From an uncultured bacterium (GTDB taxonomy: Bacteria > Krumholzibacteriota > Krumholzibacteriia > LZORAL124-64-63), in assembly GCA_903912525.1 (NCBI GenBank), contig CAIWHK010000041.1, positions 1-56,365 on the forward strand: a stretch of DNA of 56,365 bases, given 5' to 3'. This document shows positions 14,441 to 51,326 of this stretch, in pieces. The notes under the pieces are model-generated. The model worked only from the letters and a program-made list of their open reading frames with translations, was not told where the DNA came from and ran no database searches. The position numbers were made by a program, and so were the translations under genes. Positions within the stretch are counted from its first letter, which is position 1. The number at the start of each line of letters is the position of its first letter.

Positions 14441-14689
14441 CACTTGCCGCCGATGCTGCCGACAGTCCGGAATCATTACGAATGTTATCCGCTTTAAATC
14501 ATTGATATAAAAGGTATTGCAGCTTTTGTTTTGCCTGCCGGGGCGTCGCGACTTAGGTTTTTTGAAACCACAGGGCCGTGTAGGGGGAAGGTGGTGGCGC
14601 CCGCTGGCGTCGTTGATGGGGCGGTCCGGAGCGTGTTTGTCAGATTTTTAGCAGGCGAGGCCCGGCCGTGCCGGCGAAAGGAACGGACG

Positions 14690-16624
14690 ATGATGAAGAA
14701 GCTCGCTGCCTGCGGGGTGGCCCTGGGCCTTGCCTTGGTCCTGGGGCTTGCCTTGGTCCTGGCGCCGGCAACGGTCCTGGCCGGCAACATCCCCGACGCG
14801 GTCTGCGCCGACTGCCACGAGAACACCGGAGGCGACCCGGTCGAGGTCAGCCTGACGAGTCTCGTCGGCAGCGTGCATGAGGGCTTCTCCTGCACCGACT
14901 GCCACACCGGGATCACATCCGTCCCGCACGGCGCCGAGCTGGCCCGCCCCGACTGCACGGTGTGCCATGCGGACGTCGCCGAGCAGTACGTCCAGCACGG
15001 CCGCGCGATGGTCGGCAAGTCCGACAGCCTGCCGCGGTGCCAGGACTGCCACGGCAGCCACCAGATCCTGCCGCACGGCAACCCGAAGTCCTCGGTGAGC
15101 CCGTCCAACCTGCCGGCGACCTGCGGCTCCTGCCACGAGAACCAGGAGTTCCTCAAGAAGCTGGGCATCCGCTTCAAGCACCCGATCGAGGTCTACCAGG
15201 AGGGCGTGCACGGTCTCGCCACCGCCGGCGGCAAGGATACCGCCGCCAGCTGCAACGACTGCCATTCGGCGGGCGGTTCCTCGCACAAGATGCTGCCGCC
15301 GGGCGACCCGAACAGCCCCATCAACTTCTTCAACATCTCGAAGACCTGCGGTCGCTGCCACAGCACCATCCAGGAGGAGTTCGAGGCCGGCATCCACGGG
15401 CAGCTGGTCGCGCGCGGCGAGGTCGACGCGCCCACCTGCACGCACTGCCACGGCGAGCACGGCATCCTGGCGGCGAGCGACCCGCGTTCGCCGGTCAGCC
15501 CGTTCCGCGTCGCCGAGGCCACCTGCACGCCGTGCCACGACTCGGCGAACCTGAACGAGAAGTACGACCTGCCGTCCGGGCGCCTGCAGTCGTACGTCGA
15601 TTCGTACCACGGCCTGAAGAGCCGCGCCGGCGACAAGACGGTGGCCAACTGCTCGTCCTGCCACGGCGCGCACGCGATCCTGCCGTCGACCGACCCGAAG
15701 TCGTCGGTGGCGGTGGCCAACCTGATCACGACCTGCGGCCACTGCCACACCGGCATGTCGCCCGAGAAGGCCGCCAAGACCCGGATCCACTCCCAGGCCG
15801 GCGGTCACCGGACCGGCCTGGCCTACGTCATCAAGGTGATCTACCAGGTCCTGATCTTCCTGGTGATCGGCGGCATGGCGGCGTACTGCCTGCTGGACTA
15901 CCTGCGGCAGATCGCGCGCGTCATGGCCAAGAAGCAGGTGCGGCGCATGGAGGCCGACGAGGTCGTCCAGCACACCGTGCTGATGGTCAGCTTCACAGTG
16001 CTGGTGATCACCGGCTTCTCGCTGCGGTTCTACGATGCGTGGTGGGCCAAGTTGATCTTCGGCCGCGAGGGCGGCGCCGAGGTCCGCGGCCTGATCCATC
16101 GCGGGTCGGCCATCGTGATGATCGTCGGCGCGTTCTGGCACCTGGGCTACCTGCTGACCACCAAGGGCCGCGTCTTCCTGCGCGACATCGCGCCCAACAT
16201 GGAGGACGCGAAGCAGGCCATGGGCATGGTCATGTACAACCTGGGCAAGCGCGAGACGCCGCCCGCGATGCGCCGCTTCTCGTTCGTCGAGAAGGCCGAG
16301 TACTGGGCGCTGATCTGGGGCACCGTCGTGATGGTGCTGACGGGATTGTCGCTCTGGTTCGAGAAGATGCTGGTGGCGCAGGTCGGCAAGGGCTTCCTGG
16401 AAGTCTTCCTGGTGATCCACTACTACGAGGCGTGGCTGGCCTTCCTGGCCATCCTGATCTGGCACATGTACGGCGTGATCTTCAACCCGCATGCCTACCC
16501 GATGAACCCCTCGTGGATCACGGGCAAGATGCCGGAGGAGATGTTCAAGCACGAGCACGCGGCTGCGCAGTCCCCGGGCAACGTGGACAAGGTCAAGCGG
16601 CTCGGCCTCGAGCGCGACGTCTGA
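14690..16624 (+). CDS. Eleven-haem cytochrome c fused to membrane cytochrome b (CbcL-like)
   Basis: Probable inner-membrane quinol-cytochrome electron-transfer protein, 644 residues. A signal peptide is followed by a periplasmic part (to about residue 370) with eleven CxxCH haem c sites: CADCH, CTDCH, CTVCH, CQDCH, CGSCH, CNDCH, CGRCH, CTHCH, CTPCH, CSSCH and CGHCH. The C-terminal 270 residues have about five membrane helices with spaced histidines (VVQHTV, LIHRGS, FWHLGY, VIHYYE, IWHMYG), as in dihaem cytochrome b of hydrogenase or formate dehydrogenase. The same architecture occurs in Geobacter CbcL, which passes quinol electrons towards extracellular acceptors. ATG at 14690 has AAAGGAA upstream. 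No partner oxidoreductase is adjacent. Confidence 0.88.
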   Translation: MMKKLAACGVALGLALVLGLALVLAPATVLAGNIPDAVCADCHENTGGDPVEVSLTSLVGSVHEGFSCTDCHTGITSVPHGAELARPDCTVCHADVAEQYVQHGRAMVGKSDSLPRCQDCHGSHQILPHGNPKSSVSPSNLPATCGSCHENQEFLKKLGIRFKHPIEVYQEGVHGLATAGGKDTAASCNDCHSAGGSSHKMLPPGDPNSPINFFNISKTCGRCHSTIQEEFEAGIHGQLVARGEVDAPTCTHCHGEHGILAASDPRSPVSPFRVAEATCTPCHDSANLNEKYDLPSGRLQSYVDSYHGLKSRAGDKTVANCSSCHGAHAILPSTDPKSSVAVANLITTCGHCHTGMSPEKAAKTRIHSQAGGHRTGLAYVIKVIYQVLIFLVIGGMAAYCLLDYLRQIARVMAKKQVRRMEADEVVQHTVLMVSFTVLVITGFSLRFYDAWWAKLIFGREGGAEVRGLIHRGSAIVMIVGAFWHLGYLLTTKGRVFLRDIAPNMEDAKQAMGMVMYNLGKRETPPAMRRFSFVEKAEYWALIWGTVVMVLTGLSLWFEKMLVAQVGKGFLEVFLVIHYYEAWLAFLAILIWHMYGVIFNPHAYPMNPSWITGKMPEEMFKHEHAAAQSPGNVDKVKRLGLERDV

Positions 16625-16812: not shown

Positions 16813-17442
16813 ATGCCAGCCCCTCGCGTTTCCCGTTCCCTTATCCTGCGGACGACGGCCGTGGCGGCCCTGCTGGTCGTGGCGTCCCTGGCGTTCGCGG
16901 CCCACATGGAGAACCCGTCCGCCCCGTCGGCGCCGCCGCCGGCCAAAGCGCCGCACGCGACGTCGGTCACCCGCGTCATCCACGGCGAACCCGGCAAGCC
17001 CGGCGACCACGGTGACGTCAAGATCGAGATGGATGGTCGCCAGATGACCGTCACCGCCACCGAGGACGGCAAGCTGACGACGACCGTCGTCGACCTCGAC
17101 CAGGTGGGCGACATCGTCGAGGGTGCCGTGGGTGAGGCCATGACCGCGCTGAAGGACCTGCAACTGCAGGTGCGTGTGGGGCAGGACAACCGCATCGACG
17201 TCTCGACCGCCGAGGGCACCTACCAGGTGGACCTCGACGCCATCATGACCGAGGTGGCTGCTGCCGTTCAGTCGGGGCTCAAGGACATCGATACGGAAGA
17301 GTGGGCCTCGCAGGGGCCGCGCGACGCGCGCGACGAGGCAGAGCTTCGCAAGGAACTGGGGGAGCTGCAGAAGGAGATGCGTGGGCTGCGCGAGGAACTG
17401 CGCCGGCTCAGCGCCGAGGAAGCGGCGAAGGCGGGCAAATAG
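16813..17442 (+). CDS. Exported hypothetical protein with C-terminal coiled coil
   Basis: Unrecognised 209-residue protein. A signal peptide (about 1-29, ending near SLAFA) is followed by a Pro/Ala-rich linker, a beta-rich middle (about 50-130, VKIEMDGRQMTVTATEDGK), and a charged heptad-like C-terminus from about 170 (ELRKELGELQKEMRGLREEL) that should form a coiled coil. A GGAGG site sits 6 bases before the ATG. It stands alone between the cytochrome terminator and its own downstream hairpin. A periplasmic or outer-membrane-associated structural role is possible but not shown. Part of the open frame upstream of 16813 is only the shadow of the cytochrome gene. Confidence 0.75.
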   Translation: MPAPRVSRSLILRTTAVAALLVVASLAFAAHMENPSAPSAPPPAKAPHATSVTRVIHGEPGKPGDHGDVKIEMDGRQMTVTATEDGKLTTTVVDLDQVGDIVEGAVGEAMTALKDLQLQVRVGQDNRIDVSTAEGTYQVDLDAIMTEVAAAVQSGLKDIDTEEWASQGPRDARDEAELRKELGELQKEMRGLREELRRLSAEEAAKAGK

Positions 17443-17444
17443 AA

Positions 17445-17468
17445 GGCCGCCTGCAGTTGCAGACGGCC
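17445..17468 (+). terminator. Hairpin just after the exported coiled-coil gene
   Basis: GGCCG-CTGCA pairs with TGCAG-CGGCC around a 2-base turn, with one unpaired base on each side, 2 bases after the stop. No T-run follows, so it may only stabilise the 3' end or act together with the next hairpin at 17491. Confidence 0.4.
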
Positions 17469-17490
17469 CCGGTACAACCCGGATGACGAC

Positions 17491-17522
17491 GAACGCCGCC
17501 GCTGGTCTCAGCGGCGGCGTTC
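17491..17522. terminator. Shared hairpin between convergent genes
   Basis: A perfect 13-base inverted repeat (GAACGCCGCCGCT and its complement) with a 6-base loop lies where the coiled-coil gene and the selenoprotein gene converge, and it covers the last codons and stop of the latter. On the plus strand GATTT follows. It is a likely bidirectional terminator, though the T-tract is poor. Confidence 0.5.
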
Positions 17523-17732
17523 GATTTCCGCAAAGATCTCGCCGTGGTCGGGGAAGCGGTCCTGCGCCTTCTTGGAGAAAACCAGTTCGTCGTCGACGGT
17601 CACCTCGAACACGCCCCCGCTCGAGGGGATCAATTCCGAATCCAGCCCGAAACGTTCCCTCAGGGCGTCCGCCAGACCGGCGGCGCGCGGCTCGTAGTTT
17701 CAGACCCGGCAGTATTCGATCGACACCTTCAT
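17508..17732 (-). CDS. Rdx/SelW-family selenoprotein with in-frame UGA (CxxU)
   Basis: A 74-residue thioredoxin-fold redox protein if the UGA at 17700-17702 is read as selenocysteine. The sequence starts MKVSIEYCRV, then U11, then NYEPRAAGLADALRERFG, and later SSGGVFEVTVDDELVFSKK and RFPDHGEI. This follows the Rdx (SelT/SelW/SelH) family along its whole length; that family has C-x-x-C or C-x-x-U at this point. Codons on both sides are in one frame, so this is not a frameshift. A SECIS-like hairpin follows (17665-17686). An AAGGGA site lies 7 bases before the ATG, and the gene begins 14 bases after the dehydrogenase stop, so they should be cotranscribed. Ordinary gene callers would miss or truncate it. 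Confidence 0.85.
17665..17686 (-). promoter_or_regulatory. Candidate bacterial SECIS element
   Basis: On the transcript, 21 bases after the UGA, a hairpin has upper stem CCGCC/GGCGG, a bulged A, and a further GCG/CGC pair, with the apical loop GGUCU. That loop is the same as the SelB-binding loop of the E. coli fdhF SECIS, and the distance from the UGA fits bacterial elements. Pairing was read by eye from the sequence. Confidence 0.75.
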
Positions 17733-17746
17733 CGGATTTCCCTTCG

Positions 17747-18994
17747 TCAGAACTGGATCAGCGGCTTCGGCCAGGCTGCCAGCGTCTTCTCGAACGACTC
17801 GAAGTTGAACTCGTCGATGTGCACCACCGACTCCTCGCCGCCGCCGAGGATCTCCTCGAAGATGCGGTCCTGGATACCGTTGCTGCGGTCCTCGAGAAGG
17901 TTCCGCGTGATGTACCACGACTCGAAGATGCGCCGGCCGATCACGCTGTGGAGCTTCAGGCCGTTGACGATCATGCGGTCGAAGGCCTGGATGTGGAAAT
18001 TGCCCTGTTTGAGGCCGAACAGCACCACGTCGCCGCCGCGGCGCGTGCTCTGGATGGCGTTGTTCACGCTCGAATTGAAGCCGGCCATCTCCATCGAGAC
18101 GTCGGCGCCGATGCCGCCGCAGGCGGTGCGGACGGCCTGCACCAGGTCCTTGTCCGCACCCCAGGGCTGGGCGCCGTTCTTCGGCGACTTCATCGTGATG
18201 ACCTCGTCGGCGCCCAGTTTCCGCGCCAGTTCGGCGTTGCGCGCGTTGGGCTCGATGCCGATCACCCGCGTGGCGCCGAGCGCCCGGGCGACCATGATCA
18301 CGAACAGGCCGATGGTGCCGCAACCGAAGACCGCCACCGTCCGTCCGCGCAGGTCGGCCACGGTGCAGGCATGCACGGCGTTGCCGAACGGCTCCTGGAC
18401 GGCGGCCACCTTCGTGCGGATCTTGCGGGTGTCGGTCGCCCACAGGACGTTGGCCGGCAGCTTGATGTACTCGGCGAAGCAGCCGTCGCGGCCGATGCCG
18501 ATGATCACGTCCTGGCTGCAGATGTGGGTCTGCCCGATCCGGCACTGGTAGCAGGTGCCGCAGATGATGTGGCTCTCGGTCGAGACGACGTCCTTGACGC
18601 CCAGGCCGTAGCGCGCGGCGACATTGGAGCCGATCGCGACAATCTCGCCGACCAGTTCGTGGCCGATGATGCGGACGGTGTTCTGCTCGCGCTTGAGGGA
18701 GTCGAAGATCATGCCCTTGAACGCCACGCGGTTCCAGATGCCGCGGTCCGAGCCGCAGAACCCGGCGTAGAGGACCTTGACCAGGGCGCATTCGGCGTCG
18801 GCGGGGCGCGTGGACTCGTCGAGGCGGGGGATGGGCTGGCGGCTGGCCTGAAAACCGCGCGTCGTGTCCCAGGGCATGCTGGACTTGTCGTAGATCAGGC
18901 ACTTCATCGTGTCGGCGGACCGGGCCGTACTGGCGGACCTGGTTGTGCTGGCGGAATTGGTCGTGCTGGCAGAATTGGTCGTGCTGGCAGACAA
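17747..18994 (-). CDS. Zinc-dependent medium-chain alcohol/polyol dehydrogenase
   Basis: NAD(P)-dependent MDR-family oxidoreductase. Catalytic zinc ligands appear in GFCGSDRG and GHELVG; the structural zinc loop has its four cysteines in CGTCYQCRIGQTHIC; the cofactor fold is VAVFGCGTIGLFV. VQEPFGNAVHA recalls threonine dehydrogenase, but the substrate is not certain. The start is unusual: a TTG at 18994 has an ideal GGAGG 6 bases upstream, and the frame then encodes a repeated SASTTN segment before the conserved MKCLIYDK at 18907, which has no ribosome site of its own. I therefore annotate 415 residues with a low-complexity leader. It is followed by the selenoprotein gene. Confidence 0.88.
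   Translation of the reverse strand: MSASTTNSASTTNSASTTRSASTARSADTMKCLIYDKSSMPWDTTRGFQASRQPIPRLDESTRPADAECALVKVLYAGFCGSDRGIWNRVAFKGMIFDSLKREQNTVRIIGHELVGEIVAIGSNVAARYGLGVKDVVSTESHIICGTCYQCRIGQTHICSQDVIIGIGRDGCFAEYIKLPANVLWATDTRKIRTKVAAVQEPFGNAVHACTVADLRGRTVAVFGCGTIGLFVIMVARALGATRVIGIEPNARNAELARKLGADEVITMKSPKNGAQPWGADKDLVQAVRTACGGIGADVSMEMAGFNSSVNNAIQSTRRGGDVVLFGLKQGNFHIQAFDRMIVNGLKLHSVIGRRIFESWYITRNLLEDRSNGIQDRIFEEILGGGEESVVHIDEFNFESFEKTLAAWPKPLIQF
18920..18991 (-). repeat. Four tandem 18-base repeats encoding SASTTN units
   Basis: Four consecutive 18-base units encode SASTTN, SASTTN, SASTTR and SASTAR in frame, followed by SADT and the conserved dehydrogenase start. The first two units are nearly identical at DNA level. 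The repeats lie between the GGAGG site and the family's normal start, which suggests a local expansion that moved the start codon upstream. Confidence 0.85.
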
Positions 18995-48984: not shown

Positions 48985-49192
48985 CCTCCGGGTCGCGTGA
49001 CTGAAAAACTCCATGCCAAGGCCTGGGCGCCAGCGGAAGTCCGGTGAGAAACCGGCGCGGCCCCGCCACTGTAAGCGGCGACGAAACCTGCATCAAAGCC
49101 ACTGGCCGTTCGGCCGGGAAGGCGCAGGCGGTAGGACGACCCGCGAGCCAGGAGACCGGCACCAGGCCTGCCACCAACCTTCGTGGGCGAGG
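48985..49192 (+). promoter_or_regulatory. Cobalamin riboswitch
   Basis: The leader carries the full set of conserved blocks: GGAAGTCCGGTGAGAAACC from 49035, GCGCGGCCCCGCCACTGTAA after it, GAAACCTGC near 49082, and the B12 box AGCCAGGAGACCGGC at 49146-49160. It ends just before a GAGG site and GTG start, so adenosyl- or other cobalamins probably hide the ribosome site and shut off the downstream uptake genes. Outer boundaries are approximate. Confidence 0.95.
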
Positions 49193-49199
49193 TAGGGCT

Positions 49200-51326
49200 G
49201 TGGCAGTGTCCCCGGGCCGGGTTATTCCGCGCCCGCCTTCGGGCGGCGTGGGCCCGCCAACAAGCATCATCCCCCCTGCGAAACGCTGCGTTGCCGCGAT
49301 GCTGGTCGGCGTGTGCCTGCTTGCGCCCATGGCGCGGGGCGAGGTTCTGGTGACCGTCGCGGCGCCCGACGAAGCCGCCGCCAGCGACGCCGGCGTGATG
49401 CCCGGCCTGGCCTGGACCGACACCCTGGTCGTCTCGGCAACCCCGCTGGTGGCCATCCCCCTGCCGACCACGGCGTCGGTGGTCACGCGCGTGGACCTGC
49501 AGGGCGAACCTGCCGGCCGCGACGTGGCCGACGTGCTGGCCGCCACTGCCGGCCTGCAGGTGCGGCGCCTGGGCGTCGACGGCGCGTCGGCCATCCCGTC
49601 GCTGCGCGGCGGGTCGGCCGCGCAGGTGCGCCTGTTCCTGGACGGCATGCCATTGCCCGACGCCGCCGAGGGCGGCGGTTCGCTGGACGTGGTGCCGGCC
49701 GAGCGCCTGGCCGCGGTCGAGGTGCACCGCGGCGTGGTACCGGCGGCGCTCGGCGGCGCCGGCGGCATCGGCGCAATCAACCTGCTGACAAGCGCTGCCC
49801 CGGGACACCCGTTCCTGGCCGCCGGCCTCGGCTCGTTCGGCGCGCGTTCCCTGCGCGCGGGCGCCGGTTGGCGCAGCCCCGACGGGATGACCTGGGTTGA
49901 CGCGGCCGCCTATGCGCGCCGCGCCGACAACGACTTCACGTACCTGGACCACCGTCAGACCTTCCACAACGTCGAGGATGACACGCTGGCGGTCCGCGCC
50001 AACGCCTGGGTGCGCGAGCACGGCGGCTGGCTGGCCGCGACCCGCCTGTCCGGCCGGCTGACGCTTCGCGCGGGGGCAGGTTGGCTGCGGCGCGATGGCG
50101 GCCGACCTGGCCCTCTCGGCTACGCCAGCCCGCACGCCAGCGTGCGCCACGAACGGGCCGACGTTCGCCTGCGCGCCGACCTGGACGATGGCCGCCTCGT
50201 CGCCGACTTCGCGGGCGGTCGCGGCGTGGATCGCCTGGACGACCAACTGGGCGAGGTCGCGCTCGGTCGCCGCGGCGTGGGGCGCGCGGTCGGGCACGAC
50301 CTCGGCGGTCGCGTCGTCTGGTCGCCCCGCCGCGGCCGGGCCGTCGCGCCGTCGGTGGGCGTCTCGTGGCGGCGGCAGTGGGAGGGCGACAGCTTCGACG
50401 ACGTCGCCGAACCGCAGCGCCGTCGCACACAGCACGGCGCCTTCGCGGCCGTCGACCTCGAGCGCGGGCGTGTGCGCGCGACCCCGGCCTGGCGCTGGCA
50501 ACGTACGAGCGACGACTTCCCGCCGGTGCCGGCATACCCATGGCTGCCGACCCCGCCGTCGATCGTCCATGTGCGCGACGACCGCTCGCCGTCGCTTGGT
50601 CTGGTCTGCGAGGCCGTCACCGGCCGCCTGTTCCTCGAGGCGCATGCCGCCCGCGCCAGCCGTGAGCCGACCTGGGCCGAACTGTTCGGCGTACGTGGCA
50701 CGCTCGACGGCAACCGGGCGCTGAAACCCGAGGCGATCACCTCGTACGACGTGGCGCTCGTCTGCCGACCCGGCGCAGGTTCCTTCGAGGCAAGGCTGGC
50801 GCTGTTCGACGCCCGCACGGACGACAAGATCATCTTCCTGCAGAACAGCCAGCGCACGAGCAAGGCCGTGAACATCGGCGCCGCGCGCACGCGCGGCCTC
50901 GAGACCGAACTGGCCGTTCGCGACGGCGGCGGCAACCGGCTGTCGGGCAACCTGACCTGGCAGGACGCCCGCGACCGCAGCGGCCTGCCCGCCTGGGACG
51001 GCAAGCGCCTGCCGTTCCTGCCGCCGTTCGAGGCGCGGGTCTACGGCGCGGCGAGCTGCGGCGGCTTCGAGCCCTGGCTGGAGTGGACGTACCAGTCGGG
51101 CAACCCGCGCGACCGCGCCGACACGGAGCTCGACCGCGCACCCGACCGCGCGCGCCTGGGGGCGGGCGTCTCGCGCCGGCTGGCGGCGCCCTGGCTGGGC
51201 GCTGACGCGACCATGCGCATCGGCGCCACCGTCGAGAACCTGACCGACAACGATGTCTACGATGTCGAGGGCTTCCCGCTGCCCGGGCGCACCTGGCGCC
51301 TGACGGTGGCCCTCGCGGACCTGTAG
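49200..51326 (+). CDS. btuB: BtuB-type TonB-dependent cobalamin receptor
   Basis: Outer membrane beta-barrel transporter, 708 residues from the GTG at 49200. Signal sequence CVAAMLVGVCLLAPMARG; TonB box DTLVVSATP at about 78-86; plug domain with VLAATAGLQVRRLG, IPSLRGGSAAQVRLFLDG and VEVHRGVVPAALGGAGGIGAINL; then barrel strands to the terminal RLTVALADL. The cobalamin riboswitch directly upstream identifies the ligand. The start is uncertain: GTG 49200 has GAGG about 8 bases upstream but gives a long pre-signal; GTG at 49248 is the main alternative. First gene of a three-gene B12 unit. Confidence 0.92.
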   Translation: MAVSPGRVIPRPPSGGVGPPTSIIPPAKRCVAAMLVGVCLLAPMARGEVLVTVAAPDEAAASDAGVMPGLAWTDTLVVSATPLVAIPLPTTASVVTRVDLQGEPAGRDVADVLAATAGLQVRRLGVDGASAIPSLRGGSAAQVRLFLDGMPLPDAAEGGGSLDVVPAERLAAVEVHRGVVPAALGGAGGIGAINLLTSAAPGHPFLAAGLGSFGARSLRAGAGWRSPDGMTWVDAAAYARRADNDFTYLDHRQTFHNVEDDTLAVRANAWVREHGGWLAATRLSGRLTLRAGAGWLRRDGGRPGPLGYASPHASVRHERADVRLRADLDDGRLVADFAGGRGVDRLDDQLGEVALGRRGVGRAVGHDLGGRVVWSPRRGRAVAPSVGVSWRRQWEGDSFDDVAEPQRRRTQHGAFAAVDLERGRVRATPAWRWQRTSDDFPPVPAYPWLPTPPSIVHVRDDRSPSLGLVCEAVTGRLFLEAHAARASREPTWAELFGVRGTLDGNRALKPEAITSYDVALVCRPGAGSFEARLALFDARTDDKIIFLQNSQRTSKAVNIGAARTRGLETELAVRDGGGNRLSGNLTWQDARDRSGLPAWDGKRLPFLPPFEARVYGAASCGGFEPWLEWTYQSGNPRDRADTELDRAPDRARLGAGVSRRLAAPWLGADATMRIGATVENLTDNDVYDVEGFPLPGRTWRLTVALADL

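Follow-up and report, generated by a model that had tools for sequence, protein, structure and literature searches.

The locus and its predicted product

The window analysed here is the whole 56,365-nt stretch of contig CAIWHK010000041.1, from an uncultured Krumholzibacteriota bacterium. Its minus strand carries a selW/rdx-like gene with an in-frame UGA, and the following features were found in and around this gene:

17508..17732, minus strand: selW/rdx-like selenoprotein gene, 74 aa with selenocysteine (Sec) at residue 11 (CxxU), TGA stop counted in
17732-17730, minus strand: ATG start of this gene
17700..17702, minus strand: in-frame UGA (Sec), based on UGA in all parsed homologues, an aligned Cys in 2fa8 and the presence of the sel machinery
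17669..17683, minus strand: bacterial SECIS apical hairpin CCGCC-GGUCU-GGCGG with loop 17674-17678, based on covariation, constraint on the Gly codon of the loop and loop identity with fdhF
17510-17508, minus strand: terminal TGA of the selW/rdx-like gene
17736..17746, minus strand: probable ribosome-binding region CGAAGGGAAAT, 5' of the ATG, proposed from sequence only
17441..17469 (approximate), minus strand: possible terminator hairpin GGCCGTCTGCA-ACT-GCAGGCGGCC, then TTCTATTT
17747..18994, minus strand: zinc-dependent medium-chain dehydrogenase (mechanical ORF, probably with an internal true start), Pfam ADH_zinc_N 83.6 bits and ADH_N 62.3 bits
19035..20405, minus strand: ParA/MinD-like ATPase, the next gene upstream (mechanical ORF), Pfam AAA_31 114 bits and synteny

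The frame from 17732 to 17508 is interrupted only by the UGA at codon 11, and the sequence-only reading, which had described a single frame from ATG to TGA broken by this one codon, was correct in coordinates and motif as well as in the distance given for the hairpin. Reading the UGA as Sec gives the product MKVSIEYCRVUNYEPRAAGLADALRERFGLDSELIPSSGGVFEVTVDDELVFSKKAQDRFPDHGEIFAEIERRR (74 aa). The possible terminator sits between the selW/rdx-like gene and the convergent neighbour; a consensus scan did not report it.

The product matched three family models, namely Pfam Rdx PF10262 (80.6 bits, E 1e-22, cut-off 22.6), NF041051 for SelT/SelW/SelH family (seleno)proteins (100.3 bits, cut-off 88) and TIGR02174 (69.2 bits, cut-off 34.2). 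AlphaFold, run on a 35-sequence alignment, predicted a thioredoxin-like SelW fold (pLDDT 96.9) with the elements E3-8, H14-28, E33-37, E42-46, E49-53 and H63-73. The C8-R-V-U11 motif follows the first strand, and both C8 and U11 are invariant in the alignment. The best Foldseek matches among solved structures were the SelW-related 2fa8, 2obk, 3dex and 2ojl (TM 0.8-0.9), with mouse SelW 2npb as a weaker match. Judged from predicted fold and motif, the product would most likely be a small thiol/selenol oxidoreductase.

The gene had been called unannotatable by default. This was overstated, since the curated NCBI model NF041051 scores it above the cut-off, but SelW genes have indeed been overlooked by published annotation (PMC4607533). 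The SelW-like genes of Krumholzibacteriota should be regarded as complete genes and not as 10-codon stubs.

Bacterial Sec UGAs, which depend on decoding by SelB, can terminate translation when selenium is scarce. The UGA could thus end a short leader peptide that is followed by an internal start, or could set the output of the gene through partial termination according to selenium supply. We consider this very unlikely as an alternative identity of the gene: the conserved IEYCxxU segment forms the first strand of the predicted fold, there is no in-frame ATG after the UGA, and if translation stopped there at low selenium, the gene would still be that of the same selenoprotein.

Conservation of the UGA and of the downstream hairpin

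Rdx matches were found in 45 of 58 related genomes (own genome included), and each of the 46 matches contained a single internal TGA and was free of other stops. When named genomes were searched at the protein level, 80 loci were obtained, which by record title belong to Krumholzibacteriia, Gemmatimonadetes, Acidobacteria, Planctomycetota, Deltaproteobacteria/Desulfobacula, Neomarinimicrobiota, Hydrogenedentota and others. Those named relatives that come nearest are uncultured bacteria, and several carry the title Candidatus Krumholzibacteriia. Among relatives and other phyla together, TGA occupied the site in 85 of 85 parsed copies (74 distinct proteins), as extracted by a simple parser with a strict pattern that left 26 loci unparsed. 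The solved bacterial homologue 2fa8 (Atu0228) has Cys at the aligned residue (YCTQCNW versus YCRVUNY). Residue 11 is therefore Sec or Cys throughout this comparison, in agreement with the earlier proposal that the UGA stands exactly where the family has one of these residues.

The hairpin is separated from the UGA by 16 nt and its loop by 21 nt, with a G early in the apical loop. The sequence-only reading had placed a hairpin 21 bases downstream with the GGUCU loop of E. coli fdhF, which is an exact match. Among the 1,147 TGA triplets that the window contains on its two strands, none other than that of codon 11 has a 5-bp GGUCU-loop hairpin 16-31 nt after it. The folding energy was unremarkable: the 43-nt fold had -14.7 kcal/mol with a z-score of -0.06 versus shuffles in this GC-rich sequence. 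With z-scores near zero, folding energy was dropped as evidence. Since the stability of the hairpin is not unusual for its composition, selection was tested instead, and the evidence for the hairpin is one of conservation and not of stability.

Firstly, the Gly codon in the loop was GGT in 53 of 53 cases versus 67 of the 444 Gly codons elsewhere in these genes, taken over 74 distinct homologues (Fisher p 4e-38, a value that shared ancestry inflates to a degree). GGC is the dominant Gly codon of two neighbouring genes in the window, where it accounts for 64 of 81. Directly before the loop, the codon ended in C in 68 of 72 copies, whichever of five residues it encoded. Secondly, 72 copies were aligned without gaps, and pairing was seen in 94.4% of the stem cells, compared with 83.5% for shuffles and 22-66% for slid controls. 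Two-sided stem changes occurred in four of the five stem pairs and in 36 cells versus 8.1 in shuffles, and the covariation score was 0.350 versus 0.134; these shuffle-based figures are inflated by shared ancestry, but the slid controls keep that ancestry and still fall short, all of them being far lower. Thirdly, RNAalifold recovered the same hairpin unaided. The stem thus covaries among homologues, and selection acts on the downstream hairpin at the level of RNA.

An Rfam scan of the gene gave nothing above chance. A covariance model of the hairpin region gave the site 62.5 bits and the second-best match in the window 14.8, with the window's own copy included in the training set. It misses the SECIS elements of fdhF and selD, which shows that the model responds to the SelW coding sequence; it was dropped as evidence. 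Three SelW copies with the sequence UGYEPRAVSAR (L087:6001-6198, L107:1789-1986 and L118:6001-6198; two titled Gammaproteobacteria and one Immundisolibacterales) have the codons GTG AGC GCG where the loop codons xxC GGT CTG are common, so the SECIS there must differ from the consensus hairpin.

In one genome, this sequence could also arise through a single change from TGC to TGA, so the gene could in principle be a dead copy, or a sequencing error, in which an ancestral Cys codon (TGC/TGT) became TGA. All homologues examined, from many genera and phyla, have the same TGA with frames intact on both sides, which refutes this explanation, and the RNA-level constraint after the TGA also speaks against it. 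We regard it as extremely improbable.

Selenocysteine machinery and predicted decoding of the UGA

The genome that contains the window has 4.29 Mb, is 97.75% complete with 0.24% contamination, and consists of 72 contigs. Because of this fragmentation the machinery genes lie on contigs other than that of the window. All four genes were found: selC on contig C1 (67.5 bits, gathering 47; ARAGORN anticodon tca, i.e. UCA), selB on contig C25 (318.6 bits, cut-off 242) with GTPase, SelB beta-barrel and SelB winged-helix domains, selA on contig C6 (448.6 bits, cut-off 268) and selD on contig C49 (352.7 bits). Their presence supports what had earlier been concluded from the window, namely that this organism makes selenocysteine. 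The selD gene itself has one in-frame UGA, in MSDGEKVFLTRFAKSSGUAAKLS (contig C49, L018:2348-2439, minus strand), at its catalytic site, the Cys/Sec position of SelD, and this provides independent evidence that the organism decodes UGA as Sec. In a selenoprotein search of the genome, which was not exhaustive, only the SelW-like gene and selD were identified as selenoprotein genes; no formate dehydrogenase alpha subunit scored above the cut-off and UGA was absent from all eight AhpC/TSA-type matches.

SelB was above the cut-off in 54 of the 58 related genomes (own included), which means that this uncultured phylum uses selenocysteine, though 13 of the 58 had no Rdx match. The selW/rdx-like gene is thus either dispensable or missing there through incomplete assemblies.

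Apart from selenocysteine, UGA could be a sense codon in this organism, for example for Trp. No support for this reading was found, and it is refuted by the use of TGA as terminal stop of both the selW-like gene and the upstream dehydrogenase. The complete Sec machinery and the Cys at the site in a homologue also argue against it, and other phyla with the same UGA use the standard code. The chance that it is correct is vanishingly small.

The gene therefore almost certainly encodes a genuine Sec-containing, thioredoxin-like SelW/Rdx protein. Ribosomes would start at ATG 17732, while Sec would be synthesised on tRNA(Sec) by SelA and SelD, as in the established SelA/B/C/D pathway. SelB with selenocysteyl-tRNA(Sec), bound to the GGUCU hairpin, would then decode UGA 17702 as Sec and translation would terminate at TGA 17508. 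The resulting 74-residue product would adopt the Rdx/SelW fold with C8-x-x-U11 as redox pair after the first strand. Actual insertion of Sec in the host organism is what the sequence data lead us to expect.

The neighbouring dehydrogenase and comparison with known systems

The dehydrogenase gene ends 14 nt upstream of the selenoprotein gene on the same strand. Its best NCBIfam match was threonine 3-dehydrogenase (243 bits, under the cut-off of 380), and it is strongly conserved among the nearest relatives (69-97% identity). Among the 13 nearest loci, 11 have this dehydrogenase immediately before rdx, and the dehydrogenase is itself usually preceded by the ParA-like gene. One of the two exceptions, L060, is truncated by a contig end, and the other, L057 (titled Acidobacteria), has no dehydrogenase. 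It was absent next to rdx in nine of nine tested loci of more distant lineages. The two genes thus form a lineage-specific pair, with an arrangement suggestive of co-transcription, and the dehydrogenase is probably the operon partner of the selenoprotein gene. That the SelW-like protein of Krumholzibacteriota serves as dedicated redox partner of this zinc dehydrogenase seems rather unlikely; if true, it would give a concrete function to a bacterial SelW. In the parts of the literature that were available, nothing was found on what bacterial SelW-like proteins act on, and the fixed gene pair offers a lead to such targets.

The gene is ordinary in kind. According to the available parts of two surveys, SelW-like proteins are a classic family of selenoproteins that is very common in bacteria: they are among those for which Sec-using organisms have very few Cys homologues or none (Zhang et al., 2006; PMC1794560), and with 427 sequences they outnumbered every other selenoprotein family in the Global Ocean Sampling data (PMC2398784). 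The gene described here shares with them the CxxU motif, the UGA-coded Sec, the downstream bacterial SECIS and the scarcity or lack of Cys versions, but Krumholzibacteriota are not mentioned in those parts of the surveys and the conserved neighbouring dehydrogenase of this lineage sets it apart. A literature search found no paper on selenocysteine use in Krumholzibacteriota. The novelty is mild and consists of the phylum and of the conserved zinc-dehydrogenase gene directly upstream.

Campylobacter SelW (NF041051 SelTWH_Campy; CJnc60; PMC11955535; PMC4607533) is similar in that its profile is matched by the gene, but it belongs to another phylum. Read-through of the UGA was shown experimentally there, with the full-length product of C. 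jejuni SelW confirmed by Ribo-seq termination profiling and proteomics/mass spectrometry (PMC11955535), whereas the present gene is known by computation. Agrobacterium Atu0228 (2fa8), 2obk and 3dex have the same fold and redox site and were among the best structure matches; 2fa8, however, has Cys in place of Sec. The SECIS of E. coli fdhF likewise has a GGUCU loop on a short stem soon after the UGA, but its loop starts 18 nt after the UGA versus 21 here, its stem differs and the protein is unrelated.

Elsewhere in the window, 14531-16624 (plus strand) encodes a protein that combines triheme cytochrome with formate-dehydrogenase-gamma-like parts, neither of which reaches its family cut-off. A cobalamin riboswitch (Rfam RF00174, 90.7 bits) lies at 49035-49156 (plus strand), and the ORF after it (49044-51326, plus strand) encodes a TonB-dependent receptor with Plug and barrel domains. 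Together these are probably a B12-controlled B12 transporter, which is an ordinary arrangement.
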